From Peronospora farinosa (Eukaryota > Oomycota > Peronosporomycetes > Peronosporales > Peronosporaceae): a DNA stretch of 64,000 bases. Every line of letters begins with the position of its first letter. Position 1 is the stretch's first letter. The notes under the pieces were generated by a model. The model did no database searches. It was not told the DNA's origin and saw only the letters and a list, made by a program, of their open reading frames with translations. Positions 29,445 through 59,707 of this stretch are shown one piece after another. Position numbers and translations under genes: made by a program. The stretch lies in NCBI GenBank assembly GCA_947646735.1, contig CANTFK010000994.1:682001-746000 (forward strand). Direction: 5' to 3'.

Positions 29445-30803
29445 TTAATACTCGTCGCCAAAGGTTTCGTCCTCACCTTCGCCATCGGCAGTCTCAGCTG
29501 ACACTTCTTCGTAATCCTTCTCCAGAGCAGCAAGGTCTTCGCGAGCCTCCGAGAACTCGCCTTCTTCCATGCCCTCACCCACATACCAGTGCACGAACGC
29601 ACGCTTCGCGTACATCAGGTCGAACTTGTGGTTGATGCGTGAAAACACCTCAGCAATGGCGCTCGTGTTCGAGATCATGGCCACAGCGCGCTGTACGCGC
29701 GCGAGGTCACCGCCTGGCACCACCGACGGCGGTTGGTAGTTGATGCCGCACTTGAAGCCTGTCGGACACCAGTCCACGAACTGAATGGTGCGCTTCGTCT
29801 TGATCGTGGCCACGGCAGCGTTCACGTCCTTAGGAACAACATCACCTCGGTACATGAGACACGTAGCCATGTACTTGCCATGACGAGGGTCGCACTTGGC
29901 CATCATAGAGGTCGGCTCGAAGGCGCTGTTAGTGATCTCAGCAACCGAAAGCTGTTCGTGGTAGGCCTTTTCAGCTGAAATCACTGGAGCGTATGAGCTG
30001 AGCATGAAATGGATACGCGGATACGGCACCAAGTTGGTCTGGAACTCGGTAATATCCACATTCAACGAGCCATCGAAACGAAGCGACGTGGTCAACGATG
30101 AGATCACTTGTGCAATCAGTCGATTGAGGTTTGTATACGAGGGGCGCTCAACGCTTAAAGAACGACGACAAATGTCATAGATAGCTTCATTGTCCAACAT
30201 AATAGCCACGTCCATGTGCTCTAGCAACGAGTGCGTAGACAGCACCGAGTTGTACGGCTCTACGACAGCTGAAGACACTAGAGGAGACGGGTAGATCGTA
30301 AAGCCCAATTTGCTCTTACGACCATAGTCAACTGACAGACGCTCAAGTAGCAACGAGCCAAGACCGGAACCAGTACCTCCACCTACAGCATTAAACACCA
30401 TAAAGCCCTGAAGACCAGTACAAGCATCTGCAAGCTTGCGGACACGGTCTAGTACTTGGTCTACAACTTCTTTGCCAATAGTGTAGTGGCCACGTGCATA
30501 ATTATTAGCAGCATCCTCTTTTCCTGAAATGATCTGTTCTGGATGGTACAATTGACGGTACGTGCCCGTCCGCACCTCGTCACAGACAGTAGGTTCCAAG
30601 TCGACAAACACGGCACGAGGGACGTGTTTTCCTGATCCTGTTTCAGAGAAAAAGGTCGAGAACGAATCGTCTCCCATGGCACTAGAGTCACTAGGGATTT
30701 GACCATCGGGTTGAATACCATGTTCAAGACAATAGAGCTCCCAACAAGCATTACCGACTTGGATACCGCCTTGACCGAGATGAATTGAGAGGATTTCACG
30801 CAT
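29445..30803 (-). CDS. Alpha-tubulin, copy A
   Basis: This intronless gene encodes 452 aa, the usual length. [20 protein letters not shown] begins it, the tubulin GTP loop is GGGTGSG, the alpha-specific catalytic Glu is in [18 protein letters not shown], and the tail ends DEY so the C-terminal tyrosine is present. Alpha-tubulin pairs with beta-tubulin to form microtubules. Position 40, normally the acetylated lysine in alpha-tubulin, is replaced by serine ([10 protein letters not shown]). Differences from copy B include Met for Thr in [19 protein letters not shown] for DIERPTYAN, Asn for Asp in SRINHKF, and a TFGDEY tail. It is head-to-head with copy B across 569 bp and nearly identical to it in DNA over the first 500 bases. 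Confidence 0.98.
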
Positions 30804-31372: not shown

Positions 31373-32731
31373 ATGCGTGAAATCCTCTCAATTCATCTCG
31401 GTCAAGGCGGTATCCAAGTCGGTAATGCTTGTTGGGAGCTCTATTGTCTTGAACATGGTATTCAACCCGATGGTCAAATCCCTAGTGACTCTAGTGCCAT
31501 GGGAGACGATTCGTTCTCGACCTTTTTCTCTGAAACAGGATCAGGAAAACACGTCCCTCGTGCCGTGTTTGTCGACTTGGAACCTACTGTCTGTGACGAG
31601 GTGCGGACGGGCACGTACCGTCAATTGTACCATCCAGAACAGATCATTTCAGGAAAAGAGGATGCTGCTAATAATTATGCACGTGGCCACTACACTATTG
31701 GCAAAGAAGTTGTAGACCAAGTACTAGACCGTGTCCGCAAGCTTGCAGATGCATGTACTGGTCTTCAGGGCTTTATGGTGTTTAATGCTGTAGGTGGAGG
31801 TACTGGTTCCGGTCTTGGCTCGTTGCTACTTGAGCGTCTGTCAGTTGACTATGGTCGTAAGAGCAAATTGGGCTTTACGATCTACCCCTCGCCTCTAGTG
31901 TCTTCAGCTGTCGTAGAGCCGTACAACTCGGTGCTGTCTACGCATTCGTTGCTGGAGCACACGGACGTGGCTATTATGCTGGACAATGAAGCTATTTACG
32001 ACATTTGTCGTCGTTCGCTGGACATTGAACGTCCGACTTACGCAAATCTTAATCGACTGATTGCACAAGTGATCTCATCGTTGACCACATCGCTTCGTTT
32101 CGATGGCTCGTTGAATGTGGATATTACCGAGTTCCAGACCAACTTGGTGCCGTATCCGCGTATCCATTTCATGCTCAGCTCATACGCTCCAGTAATTTCT
32201 GCTGAAAAGGCCTACCACGAGCAGCTTTCGGTTGCTGAGATCACTAACAGCGCCTTTGAGCCGACCTCTATGATGGCCAAGTGTGACCCTCGTCATGGCA
32301 AGTACATGGCTACGTGTCTCATGTACCGAGGTGATGTTGTTCCTAAGGACGTGAACGCTGCCGTGGCCACGATCAAGACCAAGCGCACCATTCAGTTTGT
32401 AGACTGGTGTCCGACAGGCTTCAAGTGCGGCATCAACTACCAGCCGCCGTCGGTGGTGCCAGGCGGTGACCTCGCGCGCGTACAGCGCGCTGTGGCCATG
32501 ATCTCGAACACGAGCGCCATTGCTGAGGTGTTTTCCCGCATCGACCACAAGTTCGACCTAATGTACGCCAAACGTGCGTTCGTGCACTGGTATGTGGGTG
32601 AGGGCATGGAAGAAGGCGAGTTCTCGGAGGCTCGTGAGGACCTTGCTGCTCTGGAGAAGGACTACGAAGAAGTGTCAGCTGAGACTGCCGATGGCGAAGG
32701 TGAGGACGAGGAGTTTGGTGAGGAGTACTAA
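31373..32731 (+). CDS. Alpha-tubulin, copy B
   Basis: This intronless gene encodes 452 aa. All alpha-tubulin landmarks are present: the GTP loop [27 protein letters not shown], the catalytic Glu in VDITEFQTN, and a C-terminal acidic tail ending EEFGEEY. As in copy A, residue 40 is serine ([10 protein letters not shown]), so the canonical acetyl-lysine is missing. The middle and 3' part diverge from copy A at synonymous and some replacement sites, while the first 500 bases are nearly the same. Its residues match the common alpha-tubulin consensus better than those of copy A, making B the more conservative copy. A 77-bp-upstream initiator-like site may drive it. Confidence 0.98.
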
Positions 32732-43755: not shown

Positions 43756-45111
43756 TTAATACTCTTCACCAAACTCCTCGTCGTCGCCTTCGGCAGTCTC
43801 AGCTGACACTTCTTCGTAATCCTTCTCCAGAGCAGCAAGGTCTTCGCGAGCCTCCGAGAACTCGCCTTCCTCCATGCCCTCACCCACATACCAGTGCACG
43901 AACGCACGCTTGGCGTACATTAGGTCGAACTTGTGGTCGATGCGGGAAAACACCTCAGCAATGGCGCTCGTGTTCGAGATCATGCACACGGCACGTTGCA
44001 CGCGCGCGAGGTCACCACCTGGCACCACCGACGGCGGCTGGTAGTTGATGCCGCACTTGAAGCCTGTCGGACACCAGTCCACGAACTGAATGGTGCGCTT
44101 CGTCTTGATCGTGGCCACGGCAGCGTTCACGTCCTTAGGAACAACATCACCTCGGTACATAAGACACGTAGCCATGTACTTGCCATGACGCGGGTCGCAC
44201 TTGGCCATCATAGAGGTCGGCTCAAAGGCGCTGTTAGTGATCTCAGCAACCGAAAGCTGCTCGTGGAAAGCCTTTTCAGCAGAAATCACTGGAGCGTATG
44301 AGCTGAGCATGAAGTGGATACGCGGGTACGGCACCAAGTTAGTCTGGAACTCATTAATGTCAACGTTCAATGATCCATCGAAGCGAAGCGACGTAGTCAA
44401 TGATGAAATTACTTGGGCAATCAGCCGGTTTAAGTTGTTGTAAGTCGGACGTTCAATGTCCAGCGAACGACGACAAATGTCGTAGATAGCTTCATTGTCC
44501 AGCATAATAGCCACGTCCGTGTGCTCCAGCAACGAATGCGTAGACAGCACCGAGTTGTACGGCTCTACCACAGCTGAAGACACTAGAGGCGACGGGTAAA
44601 TTGTAAAGCCCAATTTGCTCTTACGGCCATAGTCAACTGACAGACGCTCAAGTAGCAACGAGCCAAGACCGGAACCAGTACCTCCACCTACAGCATTAAA
44701 CACCATAAAGCCCTGAAGACCAGTACAAGCATCTGCAAGCTTGCGGACACGGTCAAGCACGACATCCACGTATTCTTTTCCAATAGTATAGTGACCTCGT
44801 GCGTAATTGTTTGCAGCATCTTCTTTCCCCGAAATGATCTGCTCTGGATGATACAATTGACGGTATGTACCGGTACGTACTTCGTCACAGACTGTGGCTT
44901 CTAAATCCACAAAAACAGCACGTGGAACGTGTTTCCCTGATCCTGTTTCTGAGAAAAAGGTCGAAAACGAATCATCGCCACTACCAATGGACTTATCACT
45001 GGGCATAGTACCATCTGGTTGAATCCCATGTTCAAGACAATAGAGTTCCCAACAGGCGTTACCTGTCTGAATACCTCCTTGACCCAAGTGAATGGAAATG
45101 ATCTCACGCAT
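43756..45111 (-). CDS. Alpha-tubulin, copy C
   Basis: This intronless gene encodes 451 aa with the same landmarks as copies A and B (GGGTGSG, the catalytic Glu in VDINEFQTN, and an EEFGEEY tail). Unlike A and B, it keeps the acetylatable lysine at position 40 ([14 protein letters not shown]), has EATVCDEV where A and B have EPTVCDEV, and carries QTGNAC near the start. Synonymous sites differ widely from A and B in the 5' half, so it is an older paralogue outside the A/B homogenised pair. The start lies 225 bp from the divergent GMC oxidoreductase gene, so the two may share regulatory DNA. Confidence 0.97.
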
Positions 45112-51480: not shown

Positions 51481-51856
51481 CTGTTCCAGTAGGACATCGG
51501 AACCGATAACCAGTCAATTACAGGACAGAGCGTTCAATTGAAGCTGTCGCTTCAACACGACCAATTTGGCACTACAGTGTATTTTTTAGGCATGCATGAA
51601 CCAACGGAATCGTGTTTCCTCAGACCATGTGACTTGTTTTTCAAGCAAAAAGTATTTTTAGAGCTTGCGAGGGTGTTTCAAAAACGTCGCTGGGTAAAAA
51701 TACACAATCTGGTCGACTAGAACGCCCCTACGCGTGCACTGTAGATAACCACATTGATCGATCGCATTGTCCTAGCAGCTTGCATCGCTAGATTTAACCG
51801 ACGTTACGTATTTTTTTGATCTAGTCAAGTTGCATCACGCCCATCCTGCAAGCAGT
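51481..51856. other. Intergenic and leader region before the P4-ATPase/cyclase gene
   Basis: About 375 bp with no gene recognised. It must hold the promoters of the divergent SNAPC3-like and P4-ATPase/cyclase genes. The short open stretch 51538-51720 shows no motif. Confidence 0.6.
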
Positions 51857-54800
51857 ATGGCGTCTTCACCACATCCGAAAGTCTACCCGTCGGAAATCAG
51901 GAATGTTGCTGCATCGACGAGCAATGTGACTTTGGTGTCTCAAAAACACGATACGATCTCATCTGCAGACTCAGTCGGGACATCCCACGATAGCAATGTC
52001 TTGTCACGCAATAAGCCAGGATGGTGTGCCAGGACATTACGTCGGAATCGAGTTGAGGACCATGCAAGAGATTCCACAAACACTGATGATAATAGTGACG
52101 ACTCAGAGGAACTTTGCAAGACTCGGCTCTTGTTTGTGAACAATGTTCGGCGGACGATGGAGTACGCCGCATACATGCAGAAACATCATCACGCAGACCC
52201 GTACTGGACCAACACTGTCTGTTCTTCCAAGTACACAGCGTTCAACTTTCTACCCAAGTCATTGTTCGAGCAGTTCCGTCGCGTGGCTAATTTCTACTTC
52301 CTCATTATCTCTCTCCTGCAACTGTGCACCAAGTTATCACCTACGAACGAGTATTCGACGATTGGACCCTTGACCATTGTATTGATCGCTACGATGATCA
52401 AAGAAGGGCTTGAGGATCGTGCACGGCATCGACAAGATTGGACGGTAAACCACGGAAAGGTTGAAACACTTGATGATGCAGAAGGAAGACGCAAAACGCA
52501 AGACACTAGAGGTCATGTCGGAGGATTCCGACCAACGTTTTGGAAAAACTTACGAGTCGGTCATTTGATCAAGATCTACGATCACGAACAGGTACCTGCA
52601 GATATTGTGCTCTTATTTTCAAGCCACGAGACTGGAGAGGTCATGTGCGAGACGGCCAGTCTTGATGGCGAGTCCAATCTCAAAGTTCGTCACTGTATCA
52701 AGTGGAACCGTCTTGTCCCTCATGAACCAAACGAGTTTGGCGATACGATTCATGGGGAGGTTCGTTGTGAAGCACCGAATAAACGACTGTACAACTTTGA
52801 CGGTGTTCTAAGACTATCTCGTGTCAAAGTGCAGGCGTTTGATGAACCTCAAAGACTGGCAAAGGATCAAGAATCAACGCATGAGACGGAAGAAATGTCG
52901 ATTACGATTGAGAATGTTCTACTCCGAGGAATGAAGCTTTGCAACACGAAATGGGTCATTGGTGTTGTCGTTGGCGGAGGAAATGACACGAAGCTCATGC
53001 AAAACATGAAGGCGATTCCATCCAAGTTTAGTCGTTTGGATCGTATCGCGAATCGCTGCATCTTCCTCATCTTTGCCGTACTATTTTGCATCTGCTGCTT
53101 CAGTTCCATTCAAGCATTGTTGTTAGCGACGAGAGTGCACAAGAAAACTAGTTTCACAACGACATATTTTGCTGTAACCAAGTCGACTCTCGCCTACTTT
53201 CTAGAAGCTTGGATAACGCATTTGATCCTCTACAACAACATGGTGCCGATATCACTCTACATCAGTTTGGAAGTGGTGAAATGGTATCAAGCGCGGCGAA
53301 TTGAACGTGACCCGAAGATGCGGTGCTCGATCACTGGTCGTGGTGTTACTGCACGCACTTCAAATGTGAATGAAGACCTTGGACAGATCAAATACATCTT
53401 TAGCGACAAAACGGGAACGTTGACGAAGAATCAAATGCTTTTTAAAGTGTGCAGTATTGGTGGAGTCATCTTTGATTCATCGAATATGCATCTTCGTCGG
53501 ACAGCACAAGACATTCACGATGATCTGAGAGAAGAGAATGACATGATGCTCAAGTTTGGTGCAGTGATTGGTGCCAACCGAGAAGGAACTGCAAATAAAA
53601 GACAGCCATCGAGTTATGTATCGGTCGTCGACAAGGATGTTCGAACACACTCTCAGCTGATAGAGTTTATGAAGAGCCCTTCTGGATTGTCAACGAAAGA
53701 TAAGCTTGCAGTGGAGTTGGCTCGACCGTTCTTTCGATGTCTACTGCTTTGTCATTCTGCCTCAGTGTCGATTGAAAAACCAAATGATCAGACTCATGAA
53801 CGCAGTGTAACTGGTCGAACATCAACTGACAATGCCGAAGGAAGTGGAAGTCAACGTCAAGATGGTGAAGTCAATTCTTCCATGAGTCAATCAACCGAAG
53901 CTACAGACGCATTTTCATTCCTTAGAAACGACCGCAAGTTTTTCGGTTCTTCACCCGACGAAGTAGCCCTCCTCAATGCTGCCCTGGAATTTGATTGTGT
54001 GTATGAACGACGTGACGGAGATGTCATTCACATTCGTTTGTTTGGCAAACCCGAATCATATCAACTGCTTGCATTGAATGAATTCGACAGTACGCGAAAG
54101 TGTATGTCCGTCGTCGTAAAGAGACTACATCAAGATGAGTCGGAAGTGAGCTTGGCGAATTCAATGCACACACAAACACGTGACAGCTTGGGGTATTCCG
54201 ATTCTTCCGAAACGGATGTCGATAGATTGAGCAATGACTCGGAACCGGACGATCATGAGATCCTGGTCTTTTCTAAGGGTGCAGATACTGTCATGTTTGC
54301 TAATGCACACAAGGATGAAGATATCAGTAAGTTTGCATTGCATGTGCATTACTTTGCAGCCATGGCATTACGTACCTTGTTACTTGGATACCGTACGTTA
54401 TCAAGTACAGAGTATCATACGTGGAAGTACCAGTTTGACGCAGCAAAGAAGGCTGTGTCTAACCGAGAACAGCAATGTGAAGAAGTAGCAAAACAAATTG
54501 AAAAGTCCAGCAAACTCCTTGGCGCCACAGGTGTTGAGGATGTGCTTCAGGATGGCGTTCGAGAATGCATTTCTCAATTGTCACTTGGAGGAATCAATAT
54601 CTGGATGCTCACGGGAGATAAGGACGAAACTGCAATCTCAGTCGCGCACATGTGTGGACTCATTGGTCCCAAGAGCAAAATCATCATCATCAAGGGCAAG
54701 AACAAGCAAGACTGTCTCGATGAAATTGCAAAGGCTCGACGAAAGCTGAAGCGAGACGGTGTGTGGGTCCCCGGAGTAGCTTCTCAGGACATCTCGCTGG

Positions 54801-57800
54801 TAATTAACGGAGAAGCATTGGAATACTTGCTTGCGGACGCACTACTTTCCAGCTCGCAAGCATTGTACGTCAATGCCGATTATCACGTGACTCCCAATTC
54901 TATCCAAGCGAGTCACTCAGACTCAACCTTTAGCCACAACGATACCTTGGACGGGCTAGGAAACGAACACGATTCAAGTCAAAGTGAATCGATGTCTTCG
55001 AAGCTGGTTGATGATGTGCCGATTCCAGCAATTTTGAATACTCGAGCCGGATCATCTCGCACGTGGATCACGGATACCAATGATACCGTTCAATTGGCAC
55101 ACGAGTTGTTTCAAGAGCTTGCATCTCAGTGTAGAACAGTGGTTGCTTGTCGGCTTAGCCCCATGCAAAAGGCTCAAGTGGTAAGTTTGATGAAGGCAGC
55201 ACCTGGCTCACCACTCACGCTTGCTGTAGGAGACGGAGGCAATGATGTCAGCATGATTCAAGAAGCTCACGTTGGCGTCGGCATTTACGGACATGAAGGA
55301 ATGCAGGCAGTCCGTGCTGCTGATTTTGCTATTGTCACGTTTCTTCATCTCTCTCGACTTTTACTTGTGCATGGACGTTGGAACCATCTTCGAGTTGCTC
55401 GGGTTATCTTGTTCTCGTTTTACAAGAACATGGCGTTGATAATGACGTTGTTCTTGTACTCTTTTTACAACGGGTTCTCGGGGCAAACATTGTACGAGTC
55501 TTACTTGATGGTTGGATGGAATGTGCTGTACACTGTCTTGCCGATTTTCGTGCTTGGAATCCTTGATGAAGACATTCGAGATCGTGCTGTGCTTCGATAT
55601 CCGTTTGTGTATCGAAGTTGTCTCAAGAAAAGCGAGCTAAGTATTCAAGGACTCGGTATCTGGATCGCAAACGCGCTGTTTCATTCGTGTCTGGTCTGTT
55701 TTGTGGTGTTGAAAACGATGGACGGGGTATCGTCAAAGTATAGTCATGCTAACGGCCTTTTCCCCGATGGGACTGCTGTCTACGGAGCACTGATCATCAC
55801 TGTAACTTTGAAAGCTTCTCTCCACATGCAATGCTTGTATCGCTGGACTCGAGCTCACTACATCTCTTTACTTGGAGGGTTTGGAATGTACATTTTGTTT
55901 GTGGTGACATACTCGCAAGCGTACCGAATGTTTCCAGGTTTCGACGTGTTTCGTGATTTCGAAGGTCTTGCACCGATACTTTTTTCCGAGATGCTGTACT
56001 GGAACCTCTTGTTCTTTACATCTATCACGTGCCTCTGTGCTGACCTGGCTGTCATGTATCTGAAGAAGATGTATTTGCCTTCAAGCAACGACATCATCCT
56101 TGAGATTGATAGTGGACTTGGTGATCTTCCTGCCGTACTTGTTCGCAATGCCGATAGATCCACTGGCAACATCCATGCAACAAAACTCATCTACAGTTCG
56201 TCCGATCGATCGGATGATGGAAGCTATGCAGGAGGTGGGAGTGCAGCTGGAAGTGCTCGCTCGTCAAACGGAAAATGGACACCATCGCTTCTCGAAGGCG
56301 AGTGGAGTCAACAGTTTCGTGATTTCGACCAACCTTCCGAGCACGATGAATTGTCGAAACAACTCGTCTTGATACAGCGTGATCTTTCTCAGGAGATCGG
56401 ACACCCGGACCCTTTCATGCAGGAAGATGATGTACACAGCTCACGAGCATTACGGGTGCAACCACCCATTCACCCTTTGACACTGGAATTTATGGGCGAG
56501 GAACATCAACGTCTTGAAATGGAATACGAGATTACGTTTGCCTTTCGTGAGCGCAGTCGTGTCATGCTATGCTTGAAGGTTATGGCGTTCATGATTCCCC
56601 TTTACGCCGTTTACGAATTGTTCTGGGAAGAGGAATCGATGTACATTTGGATTCGCGTGAGCTACTTCGTGTGCGACTTGTTGTTCATGCGCTTTGTCCG
56701 TACCAAGTACTTTGTTCAACACTACCAAATTGCGATTCTGCTGCCTTACTGCATCGTTGGTATGGTCCTTACGCTGACAATCTCAGATACAGGCAAATTC
56801 GCTGCAGCTCTTTATCCAGTTGGGCTTTTCGTGGTCATCCGCGTAAAGTTTCTCTACGCATTGCTGCTCTCGATGTATAACTTTGCCTTCTACATGCTGG
56901 CGGAACGATTGTGCTCAATGAATTATAGCAACGGTGTTGATATGTCCGATCTGATGCTCTTCGCCCTCTACTTGATGCTCGTGATTATCTTTGGAGCATA
57001 CGCGTGCTACTCGCTTCAGATCACCATGCGACGAGATTTCCTTCAGAGTCGATCACTCCTCATTGAACAGAAGCGTTCAACTCAAATTCTCCAGAATATG
57101 CTGCCCGAACACATTGTTCAACGCATGCAAAAGGGTGACACGTTGATAAGTGAAGACGAACAGGATGTGACGATCCTATTTTGTGATATCGCTGACTTTG
57201 CTTCCTTCGTAAACCGCTTCAGCCCCACAGAAGTCGTTTCTCTTCTCGATCGAGTGTACTCACTCTTTGATCAAATTTGCCAGAAACATGATGTTCGTAA
57301 GATGGAAACGGTTGGCAAAACTTACATGGCTTGTGCTGGTTTACAAGGCAAAGATCGAGGCAGAGAAGCAGCACTTCGTGCTGTATCAATGGCATTGGAT
57401 ATGTTGACCTGTCTTGAGAAATGTCGTGCATCGAATGGCAATGGCATAAAGCTTCGTATCGGAATTCATTCGGGTCGTGTTGTGAGTGGACTGGTAGGCA
57501 TCAAGAAGCAGCAATTCTCGTTGTTTGGTGACACTGTAAACACGGCATCGCGCATGCAGTCGACAGGTGTAACTGGACGGTGTCAAATCTCTCACGTTAC
57601 GTACACGAAGCTTGTTAAGCATTTCACGTTTGAAGAACGGCAAATTGATGTAAAGGGTAAAGGAAGCATGAAAGCGTACCTGGTAGGCGAACCGATTTCA
57701 CAAGTAGCACAAATGTCATGTGTCGGTCAGTTGGAGCTCACTTCTGAGCATGACTTGGTCTCGATGCCGTCGTTGGCAGTAAACGTAAGCTGCCCATTTG

Positions 57801-59707
57801 TCGTGACTCGAAACCGACTACTACGTTCGGCAAAACAGGGCTGGAAAAAACATAATCCGATTCGCATGCTGCTTGGAAAATCACCTGATCGAACTTCATG
57901 GGGAGGAACCAAAGACACGAGCGAGAGGATCGAGCAGCACATGCTTACGAAGATTCGATTACCGGATATGTGCTTTAAGGATGACGAGATGGAAAGCAAG
58001 TATCTCGAAATGACACGATCCGATCGAGTAGATGGAGCACGCACTACTTTCCTCGCTTTGGCAGCGTATGCTTCATTCACTTGTATGCGCGATCTCGTAA
58101 CGAAACTTTTCTCAGTATACAGCTCGTATGAAGATCAGGAAGATATCTCGCCGAAGATGTACATGATCCTGTTACTTTTTCGGGGTCCATTTGCAATCGT
58201 AGCGATATTGGTAGCACGGCGTGTCCGTGATGAGTTTGTCTGCTACTCGGAGACCAAGCTTCGTAATGTGCTTCTTGGGTTGTATCTCGTTGGACTCCTC
58301 GCATTTACGTTGGCTCAGGCACTTTTGTGGGGTCTCAGCTACGAAGCAGATATCGATACGTCACCTCGCTACGTGAATTTGTGCTTGGACACAGTGCTGG
58401 CGATGTTTGTCGTTTCCAACGGCCGCTCGATCTTGTATCGTCATGTGGTCGTGTTTAACGCCATAGCTCTGGTAATGGTGACTATCACTACACTGGTATC
58501 TCTGCAAAGGTATCATCAAGACGCTGCAAAGTTCAATTCCAAGTTCAAAACGAGCTACCCGATAGTACTCACGTACTTTTCAGTGGTGGCGAATATCATC
58601 GCATCACAAAGTACCGAGTTCTTTACACGGCGTCAAATCTGGCTCAAGACCCGTACTCAGCTGGAAACCATGAACGCTGATCGACTACTGTATCAAATGT
58701 TGCCAGCCGCTGTAGTTATGCGACTAAAAGAGGGAGAAATGGTCTGTGACGAGCATCAGCAAGTGGGAATCCTGTTTTCAGACATCAAGGGGTTCACGTC
58801 TATCGCTTCACAAGCTGCTACAGCTCAAGTTGTCGACATTTTAGCCTCGCTCTTTTGTGCGTTTGACAAGCTCACTGAAAAGCACGGTGTGTTTAAGATG
58901 CAGACCATCGGTGACGCGTACGTGATTGTTTCAGGTCTGCCGTACGCGGACATGAGTCTTGGTTCTGATCTAGTGACAAATTCCGCTAGTACTCCAAACA
59001 TGTCAAAGGTAGATGCTGCGTCAAGTTTGGGGCTCACATCCACGTTGCCTCGGGTAGCTAGCAACCGTGTTCTAAACTGGGAACGGAAGCATGGCGCAGT
59101 ACGAAAATTCGGTGATACCCCACAAGGCTCAGACACGAAGCTGAGATCGTTTCTACTGCAACGAAATGCGTTGAAAACCAAAGATCAAATGCATTTGCGC
59201 AGCCACATCCGTGATCTGCTTGCTATGGCTCGTGACATGCACCAGGAGGTGCGTAAAATACAAGACCCAAACACCGGTGAGCGGTTGCAAATGCGTATCG
59301 GCATCCACATTGGTTACATCATTGGTGGTGTGATCGGAACGACCACGCTACGTTACGACATGTGGGGTCCAGATGCACTCACAGCCAACGAGCTTGAATC
59401 CAATGGCGTTCCTGAGAAAATTCTTGTAAGTCCTGCTGTGCAAGAAGTCGTCAAGGACATGGCCGATATTCGTTGTACGCCCCATGGCAAGATCAATTGT
59501 ACGAACGTTCCGATGATGGACACATATCTCGTCGATTTCATTGAGCCGGTCGGAAGAATCAATGACAACAGCACCAAAAGCAGTGGAAAATGCGATCTAC
59601 TTCGACCAGCATCTAGCTTTGGTGACTTGGATCAAGGCAAAAGACACCATGATAACCCCCCACGTGAGCACCATCAGATAGTTATACAGCTATCGAATCT
59701 TCGTTAA
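51857..59707 (+). CDS. P4-type ATPase fused to two guanylyl cyclase domains
   Basis: One exon encodes 2616 aa, starting at the ATG at 51857. Residues about 80-1500 are a P4-ATPase (lipid flippase): QFRRVANFYFLI, DGES at 270-273, TM4 with PISLYISLEVVKW, phosphorylated Asp517 in DKTGTLTKNQM, KGAD, and GDGGND at 1125-1130, then further membrane helices. A second six-helix cassette (about 1570-1730) leads through QILQNMLPEHIVQRM into cyclase C1 (about 1770-1930), and a third cassette (about 2060-2260) leads into C2 (about 2300-2550). C1 has metal Asp1777, but Lys1821 replaces the second metal Asp; it keeps Glu1817, Ser1888, Asn1895 and Arg1899. C2 has both metal Asps (2309, 2353) but Leu2508 and Glu2512 replace Asn and Arg. 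One active site per pair is therefore expected, and Glu1817 favours GTP. Alveolates have the same fusion for cGMP signalling. Confidence 0.93.
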   Translation: MASSPHPKVYPSEIRNVAASTSNVTLVSQKHDTISSADSVGTSHDSNVLSRNKPGWCARTLRRNRVEDHARDSTNTDDNSDDSEELCKTRLLFVNNVRRTMEYAAYMQKHHHADPYWTNTVCSSKYTAFNFLPKSLFEQFRRVANFYFLIISLLQLCTKLSPTNEYSTIGPLTIVLIATMIKEGLEDRARHRQDWTVNHGKVETLDDAEGRRKTQDTRGHVGGFRPTFWKNLRVGHLIKIYDHEQVPADIVLLFSSHETGEVMCETASLDGESNLKVRHCIKWNRLVPHEPNEFGDTIHGEVRCEAPNKRLYNFDGVLRLSRVKVQAFDEPQRLAKDQESTHETEEMSITIENVLLRGMKLCNTKWVIGVVVGGGNDTKLMQNMKAIPSKFSRLDRIANRCIFLIFAVLFCICCFSSIQALLLATRVHKKTSFTTTYFAVTKSTLAYFLEAWITHLILYNNMVPISLYISLEVVKWYQARRIERDPKMRCSITGRGVTARTSNVNEDLGQIKYIFSDKTGTLTKNQMLFKVCSIGGVIFDSSNMHLRRTAQDIHDDLREENDMMLKFGAVIGANREGTANKRQPSSYVSVVDKDVRTHSQLIEFMKSPSGLSTKDKLAVELARPFFRCLLLCHSASVSIEKPNDQTHERSVTGRTSTDNAEGSGSQRQDGEVNSSMSQSTEATDAFSFLRNDRKFFGSSPDEVALLNAALEFDCVYERRDGDVIHIRLFGKPESYQLLALNEFDSTRKCMSVVVKRLHQDESEVSLANSMHTQTRDSLGYSDSSETDVDRLSNDSEPDDHEILVFSKGADTVMFANAHKDEDISKFALHVHYFAAMALRTLLLGYRTLSSTEYHTWKYQFDAAKKAVSNREQQCEEVAKQIEKSSKLLGATGVEDVLQDGVRECISQLSLGGINIWMLTGDKDETAISVAHMCGLIGPKSKIIIIKGKNKQDCLDEIAKARRKLKRDGVWVPGVASQDISLVINGEALEYLLADALLSSSQALYVNADYHVTPNSIQASHSDSTFSHNDTLDGLGNEHDSSQSESMSSKLVDDVPIPAILNTRAGSSRTWITDTNDTVQLAHELFQELASQCRTVVACRLSPMQKAQVVSLMKAAPGSPLTLAVGDGGNDVSMIQEAHVGVGIYGHEGMQAVRAADFAIVTFLHLSRLLLVHGRWNHLRVARVILFSFYKNMALIMTLFLYSFYNGFSGQTLYESYLMVGWNVLYTVLPIFVLGILDEDIRDRAVLRYPFVYRSCLKKSELSIQGLGIWIANALFHSCLVCFVVLKTMDGVSSKYSHANGLFPDGTAVYGALIITVTLKASLHMQCLYRWTRAHYISLLGGFGMYILFVVTYSQAYRMFPGFDVFRDFEGLAPILFSEMLYWNLLFFTSITCLCADLAVMYLKKMYLPSSNDIILEIDSGLGDLPAVLVRNADRSTGNIHATKLIYSSSDRSDDGSYAGGGSAAGSARSSNGKWTPSLLEGEWSQQFRDFDQPSEHDELSKQLVLIQRDLSQEIGHPDPFMQEDDVHSSRALRVQPPIHPLTLEFMGEEHQRLEMEYEITFAFRERSRVMLCLKVMAFMIPLYAVYELFWEEESMYIWIRVSYFVCDLLFMRFVRTKYFVQHYQIAILLPYCIVGMVLTLTISDTGKFAAALYPVGLFVVIRVKFLYALLLSMYNFAFYMLAERLCSMNYSNGVDMSDLMLFALYLMLVIIFGAYACYSLQITMRRDFLQSRSLLIEQKRSTQILQNMLPEHIVQRMQKGDTLISEDEQDVTILFCDIADFASFVNRFSPTEVVSLLDRVYSLFDQICQKHDVRKMETVGKTYMACAGLQGKDRGREAALRAVSMALDMLTCLEKCRASNGNGIKLRIGIHSGRVVSGLVGIKKQQFSLFGDTVNTASRMQSTGVTGRCQISHVTYTKLVKHFTFEERQIDVKGKGSMKAYLVGEPISQVAQMSCVGQLELTSEHDLVSMPSLAVNVSCPFVVTRNRLLRSAKQGWKKHNPIRMLLGKSPDRTSWGGTKDTSERIEQHMLTKIRLPDMCFKDDEMESKYLEMTRSDRVDGARTTFLALAAYASFTCMRDLVTKLFSVYSSYEDQEDISPKMYMILLLFRGPFAIVAILVARRVRDEFVCYSETKLRNVLLGLYLVGLLAFTLAQALLWGLSYEADIDTSPRYVNLCLDTVLAMFVVSNGRSILYRHVVVFNAIALVMVTITTLVSLQRYHQDAAKFNSKFKTSYPIVLTYFSVVANIIASQSTEFFTRRQIWLKTRTQLETMNADRLLYQMLPAAVVMRLKEGEMVCDEHQQVGILFSDIKGFTSIASQAATAQVVDILASLFCAFDKLTEKHGVFKMQTIGDAYVIVSGLPYADMSLGSDLVTNSASTPNMSKVDAASSLGLTSTLPRVASNRVLNWERKHGAVRKFGDTPQGSDTKLRSFLLQRNALKTKDQMHLRSHIRDLLAMARDMHQEVRKIQDPNTGERLQMRIGIHIGYIIGGVIGTTTLRYDMWGPDALTANELESNGVPEKILVSPAVQEVVKDMADIRCTPHGKINCTNVPMMDTYLVDFIEPVGRINDNSTKSSGKCDLLRPASSFGDLDQGKRHHDNPPREHHQIVIQLSNLR

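Follow-up and report, generated by a model that had tools for sequence, protein, structure and literature searches.

A P4-ATPase/guanylyl cyclase fusion in the oomycete Peronospora farinosa

Apicomplexans and ciliates possess proteins, here called ATPaseP-GC (GC, guanylyl cyclase; TgATPaseP-GC, PfGC-alpha and PfGC-beta), in which an N-terminal P4-ATPase is joined to two C-terminal cyclase domains, each following a block of helices. Passages on the Toxoplasma protein assign the nucleotide and transition-state residues to the first cyclase domain (C1) and the metals to the second (C2), and call the fusion alveolate-specific (PMC6592433). A restriction to apicomplexans or alveolates is likewise stated in passages of PMC6532924 and PMC7858053, and the passages of a survey that had Phytophthora infestans in its set give no bifunctional orthologue outside apicomplexans (PMC5348985). 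Within titles, abstracts or passages of the open-access literature, we found no report of a fusion in stramenopiles. Here, we describe such a protein, P0001, encoded in a stretch of 64,000 nucleotides (the window) of the downy mildew Peronospora farinosa (assembly GCA_947646735.1, contig CANTFK010000994.1, positions 682,001 to 746,000, forward strand). The fusion is thus of a known kind; what is new is a range that is wider, and most likely older, than published.

We regard it as probable that the protein is a single-chain membrane guanylyl cyclase with flippase input, inherited vertically from the ancestor of stramenopiles and alveolates. In P0001, a single chain unites a P4-ATPase with two class III cyclase domains; its catalytic site is inverted, and in the cyclase tree it belongs to the same clan as the alveolate members. 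It differs from the described ATPaseP-GCs in its stramenopile host, and from the Toxoplasma protein (4367 amino acids (aa) from 54 exons in the passages of PMC6592433) in its length of 2616 aa and its uninterrupted frame.

Architecture of the fusion protein

The gene is an uninterrupted open frame of 2616 codons from ATG to stop, with an alternative in-frame TTG start at 51830, upstream of the ATG at 51857 (Table 1). Pfam recovered N- and C-terminal P4 domains and, behind them, three stretches of Guanylate_cyc, of which C1 contains one and C2 the other two. NCBIfam TIGR01652 scored 927 bits against a cut-off of 431, and the P4 profile together with intact DGES, DKTGT and GDGxND motifs identifies the N-terminal half as a P4-ATPase. 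Frame and domain searches therefore agree with the original prediction, which had been made from the letters of this stretch and described a complete P4-ATPase joined to two class III cyclase domains. DGES at 270, DKTGTLT at 517 and GDGGND at 1125 were located where it had placed them, and all eight cyclase residues that it named (Glu1817, Lys1821, Asn1895, Arg1899, Asp2309, Asp2353, Leu2508, Glu2512) were found. It had also called the gene single-exon; the frame is indeed unbroken, and it is from this open frame that the putative single exon is read.

The nearest protein is P0002 of Peronospora effusa, annotated with 2623 aa and 99% identical by search; in a global alignment 48 columns differ, gaps counted. 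Because this near-identical annotated protein exists, the length of the frame is not due to chance, and we rejected a chance or artefactual frame. A fusion may also be mimicked by two genes merged through a missed stop or by annotation, and several public oomycete models are indeed truncated or have additional ankyrin domains (P0007, P0009, P0015, P0016, P0019). However, the frame in P. farinosa is uninterrupted, full-length models recur across many oomycetes, and the assembled transcripts P0056, P0057 and P0062 (the last starting inside the P4 half) encode P4 and cyclase domains in a single frame, so that two separate genes are unlikely in those relatives. We therefore consider a merger very improbable. 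Several public records label the oomycete protein only as a phospholipid-transporting ATPase.

Table 1. Features of the fusion gene in window coordinates (limits of the P4-ATPase module and of C2 were chosen by us).
Feature	Position	Strand	Basis
Complete open reading frame, P4-ATPase/guanylyl cyclase fusion, 2616 aa	51857..59707	+	open frame, Pfam, NCBIfam
P4-ATPase module, residues 95-1430	52139..56146	+	TIGR01652, 927 bits; PF16209, PF00702, PF13246, PF16212
DGES actuator motif, residues 270-273	52664..52675	+	motif position
PISL, presumably the P4 lipid-path motif, residues 464-467	53246..53257	+	motif position
DKTGTLT, phosphorylation site D517	53405..53425	+	motif position
GDGGND hinge motif, residues 1125-1130	55229..55246	+	motif position
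Membrane-helix block 1 and long helix into C1, residues about 1551-1748	56507..57100	+	
Cyclase C1, residues 1766-1943 (Glu1817, Lys1821, Ser1888, Asn1895, Arg1899)	57152..57685	+	PF00211
Membrane-helix block 2, residues about 2043-2281	57983..58699	+	six long predicted helices
Cyclase C2, residues 2282-2556 (Asp2309, Asp2353, Asp2501)	58700..59524	+	PF00211 in two stretches

Catalytic sites of the two halves

In P0001, C1 carries Glu1817 and Ser1888 together with Asn1895 and Arg1899; it retains the first metal Asp (D1777), and Lys1821 replaces the second. C2 has both metal Asps (2309 and 2353), while Leu2508 and Glu2512 stand in place of Asn and Arg. We aligned the cyclase domains of 90 two-domain fusions and set apart 21 cyclase proteins that have no P4 half or only one domain. 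The guanine-reading site of C1 was Glu in all 90 fusions and its second metal site was Asp in none; Asn and Arg were both kept in 85, and two of the five misses are gaps in damaged models (P0032, P0107), the remaining three being substitutions. In C2, the second metal Asp was present in 89 of 90 (one gap) and the transition-state Asn in none (two gaps). The exact residue pattern of P0001 is common to 47 of the 90 fusions. An animal adenylyl cyclase taken as control (P0314) showed the opposite assignment, and the predicted fold of the cyclase region matched AC9 across both halves. Columns, control and fold thus bear out the predicted inverted layout, in which C1 is animal-C2-like and C2 is animal-C1-like.

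Judging by the residues, a single GTP site should form across the C1-C2 pair, with cGMP as the predicted product. Compared to the animal transmembrane adenylyl cyclases (AC9, AC5, AC8), which have the metals on C1 and Lys, Asn and Arg on C2, the catalytic roles of the domains are exchanged, Glu replaces Lys at the base-reading site and a P4 module is added. An adenylyl cyclase function is disfavored by Glu1817 and Ser1888, the latter at a position that is mostly Cys in the animal guanylyl cyclases of our set. The guanine pair Glu/Ser is that of Plasmodium GC-beta, whereas Toxoplasma has Glu/Ala according to passages of PMC6592433.

The exchanged assignment also occurs in many unfused double cyclases (P0237 and others), and the inversion is therefore not tied to the fusion. 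These proteins have no P4 half and form a separate clan in the cyclase tree. Further double cyclases are on record: passages of PMC6592433 mention one from Dictyostelium that has two GC domains but lacks an ATPase region, and about ten double-domain guanylate cyclases of Halocafeteria appear in passages of PMC5447177 that mention no P4 half.

Does the P4 half pump? Our survey took in 104 proteins that have one or more cyclase domains and a P4 match above 150 bits; 59 were classed as oomycete, some of them by similarity, and the other 45 as non-oomycete. Six pump positions were scored (E272, D517, D921, D1126, N1129, D1130). Every oomycete row that is complete at these positions (41 of 41) kept all six residues; among the 18 incomplete ones, three letters differed, in damaged models. 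Since the six residues are intact in the complete oomycete rows, the oomycete form should be capable of a full pump cycle, as some relatives are not. An alternative holds that the P4 half is only a lipid sensor or scaffold and does not pump. Related fusions without pump residues speak for it: only 15 of 28 complete non-oomycete rows are intact, the phosphorylation Asp is Ala in four rows of Plasmodium GC-beta, and the actuator Glu is Gln, Asp or Ala in four Cafeteria-type rows (P0058, P0060, P0061, P0063; only P0060 is named). It is opposed by the conservation of all six residues in every complete oomycete row and by DGES/T, PISL and KGAD, which were present in all ten oomycete rows checked. 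For the oomycete protein, in which the residues lost from Plasmodium GC-beta are intact, we consider a pure sensor unlikely, although it deserves to be kept in mind.

The Cafeteria-type fusions retain the phosphorylation Asp despite the loss of the actuator Glu and form a natural pump-defective series. Side by side, pump-intact and pump-damaged relatives make the question of pump versus sensor testable by comparison. From P. falciparum, passages report that parasites in which the Asp of GC-alpha had been replaced were not selectable (PMC7858053), and that CDC50B binds GC-alpha and raises cGMP (PMC9426505). For Toxoplasma, passages of a review place phosphatidic acid upstream of the ATPaseP-GC cyclase or directly on it (PMC6532924). 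By analogy, these findings may apply to oomycetes.

Distribution and descent of the fusion

Searching with the cyclase half gave 99 proteins. Among oomycetes, named orthologues that possess both halves come from Peronospora, Phytophthora, Nothophytophthora, Globisporangium, Pythium, Lagenidium, Aphanomyces, Achlya, Thraustotheca and Saprolegnia; a partial model with a truncated name ('Plasmo') was taken to be from Plasmopara. Outside oomycetes, named fusions belong to the bicosoecid Cafeteria roenbergensis, the ciliate Blepharisma, Cryptosporidium and Plasmodium (GC-beta). The named matches listed contain no fusion from an ochrophyte, and none of them bears the name of Hyaloperonospora, Bremia or Albugo. 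The fusion is widespread in oomycetes and probably goes back to their common ancestor, and the named oomycete and Cafeteria orthologues, together with the trees, support the earlier proposal that it is shared beyond alveolates.

Two further observations concern individual lineages. The public orthologue model of Peronospora belbahrii (P0265, 631 aa) covers part of the P4 half and membrane block 1 and ends before C1, which may reflect a broken gene or a fault of annotation or assembly. Saprolegnia and Achlya have a second, divergent fusion group (P0049, P0050, P0051, P0053; two of the rows from S. diclina), which forms its own clade at 100/99 in the cyclase tree. P0051 also lists accessions that we take to be EF-hand and TPR.

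For the cyclase tree, 66 rows were chosen and their C1 and C2 columns concatenated; the long row P0064 (a fusion) and P0220 were then dropped, leaving a careful tree of 64. The grouping of many rows was taken from an earlier tree; the named ones are Blepharisma, Cryptosporidium, Plasmodium, Gregarina, Cafeteria and most of the oomycetes. A branch at 100/95 set the fused rows, alveolate members included, apart from the adenylyl cyclase and 18 unfused double cyclases, and a quick tree of all 66 rows placed the fused rows, P0064 among them, together at 94. Within the fused rows, oomycetes formed one group (100/100), and the internal order on the stramenopile side was weak (73/44 and 86/85).

Both oomycetes and apicomplexans include parasites, and apicomplexans are the best-known carriers, which would fit a horizontal transfer from an apicomplexan to oomycetes. 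Yet the alveolate-type rows formed one group (100/100) without oomycetes, and Cafeteria also carries the fusion. Forcing 16 oomycete and five apicomplexan rows into one clade cost 96 log units and was rejected by the approximately unbiased (AU) test under the model used (p 2.2e-59). Such a transfer is hardly credible.

The P4 half was placed in a quick tree of 57 rows, including five P4 paralogues of the P. farinosa genome; the tree is unrooted, as no row was identified as ATP9/Neo1. One side of a branch at 99 held 28 fused rows, several alveolate ones among them as long branches, together with five unfused P4s (P0102, P0103, P0105, P0109, P0146), apart from 19 other unfused P4s and the five own-genome paralogues.

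Several results count against a vertically inherited, flippase-linked guanylyl cyclase. Three fusions lack the C1 Asn and Arg (P0163, P0169, P0185, grouping with Blepharisma P0170) and 13 of the 28 complete non-oomycete rows lack the full set of pump residues; consequently, neither half is required in every member. Passages of PMC6592433 describe attempts to assay Toxoplasma GC1, GC2 and GC1+GC2 as recombinant proteins from E. coli as unsuccessful, although mutants did show a role in cGMP synthesis. P0213 and P0214, which have no P4 half and may be incomplete sequences, fall inside the fused cyclase clan. Finally, five unfused P4s stand among the fused rows of the P4 tree, and a clade of the 28 fused rows alone was rejected (p 0.004). 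Our claim of a single origin is therefore based on the cyclase half, and the P4 half backs it only in part.

For the five unfused P4s, truncated models, later loss and descent from before the fusion are all conceivable. Because of them, a second scenario has to be weighed, in which one inverted double cyclase, inherited by stramenopiles and alveolates alike, was joined to a P4-ATPase separately in each; the existence of unfused inverted double cyclases (P0237 and others) also speaks for it. Against it, the fused rows with P0213 and P0214 constitute one cyclase clan, and with the five P4s they occupy one side of the P4 branch. Independent fusions thus appear improbable. The best reading of the sequences remains descent from a single fusion: its occurrence in oomycetes and Cafeteria moves the origin back, most likely before the split of stramenopiles and alveolates. 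In addition, a cyclase half (P0252) and a P4 half (P0102), both of the fused type, are annotated apart on contigs with names of one style. They could reflect the time before the two halves were joined or a model split in annotation, perhaps in a lineage that is neither stramenopile nor alveolate; the style of the names might point to a glaucophyte.

Genome setting and proposed mechanism

The assembly searched comprises 46.85 Mb in 274 contigs. Of ten PF00211 matches, three fall within the fusion and the remaining seven lie on three further contigs; the seven correspond to six places if two neighboring half-domain matches on C186 are one gene, and the frames at all six hold one cyclase domain or part of one. 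At none of these six places is the residue set of the fusion's site complete. On contig C193, all four places are without the Asn/Arg pair, and L031 has Lys at the base site (read by eye). L027 comes nearest, with Glu at the base site (by eye, the alignment column being one off) and with Asn and Arg; its second specificity site is Asp, and the first metal Asp is absent. Given these residues, the fusion may not be the genome's sole guanylyl-type cyclase. A search with the unfused inverted double cyclase P0237 of Nothophytophthora matched only the fusion locus in P. farinosa; the unfused protein was possibly lost along with zoospores.

Candidate partners are encoded in the same genome: a CDC50 gene, PDEase_I at six loci, a kinase with a cyclic-nucleotide-binding domain (L041), and a 1941-aa frame (L033:886-6708, minus strand) that combines two such domains with a protein kinase and a PP2C phosphatase. 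Dynein_heavy had one match in the genome and none in 14 control genomes, all prokaryotes and hence no positive control. The single chain fits a lineage without axonemes, as we take Peronospora to be. Since an intact fusion is retained in this flagellum-less lineage, it likely has a role beyond zoospore swimming.

We propose that C1 and C2 would pair as in animal transmembrane adenylyl cyclases with their roles exchanged. C2 would hold both metals, C1 would bind guanine through Glu1817 and Ser1888, and C1 Asn1895 and Arg1899 would stabilize the transition state, so that one of two pseudo-symmetric pockets would make cGMP and the other would be dead. The P4 half, probably with the CDC50 subunit of the genome, would cycle via phosphorylation of D517. 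A membrane lipid acting on the P4 half would most likely gate the cyclase through membrane block 1. The cGMP would be read by cyclic-nucleotide kinases, and the signal would be ended by phosphodiesterases. The gene itself would have come by vertical inheritance from the ancestor of stramenopiles and alveolates.

More tentatively, and as an idea that we consider somewhat less likely than not, the fusion may be the ancestral cGMP receptor of the stramenopile-alveolate or an older lineage. Its pump-competent original form would survive in oomycetes, and Cafeteria-type and several alveolate lineages would have lost pump residues separately to become pure sensors. In the flagellum-less downy mildews it would perhaps be the only complete guanylyl-type cyclase, acting outside swimming.

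The oomycete fusion offers an entry point to cGMP signaling in oomycetes. Passages of PMC3019232 count six kinases of the cGMP-dependent type (PKG) in P. infestans and one in Hyaloperonospora. Two further Phytophthora proteins could not be mapped onto the fusion orthologue: PITG_09926, judged guanylyl-type by its residues (passages of PMC5322657), and PPTG_08439, a third zoospore membrane cyclase whose architecture the passages of PMC12223298 leave undescribed.

The window also contains three full-length tubulin genes, at 29445-30803 (minus strand), 31373-32731 (plus) and 43756-45111 (minus). Two of them are divergent neighbors, each 452 aa long, whose profile scores are almost the same.
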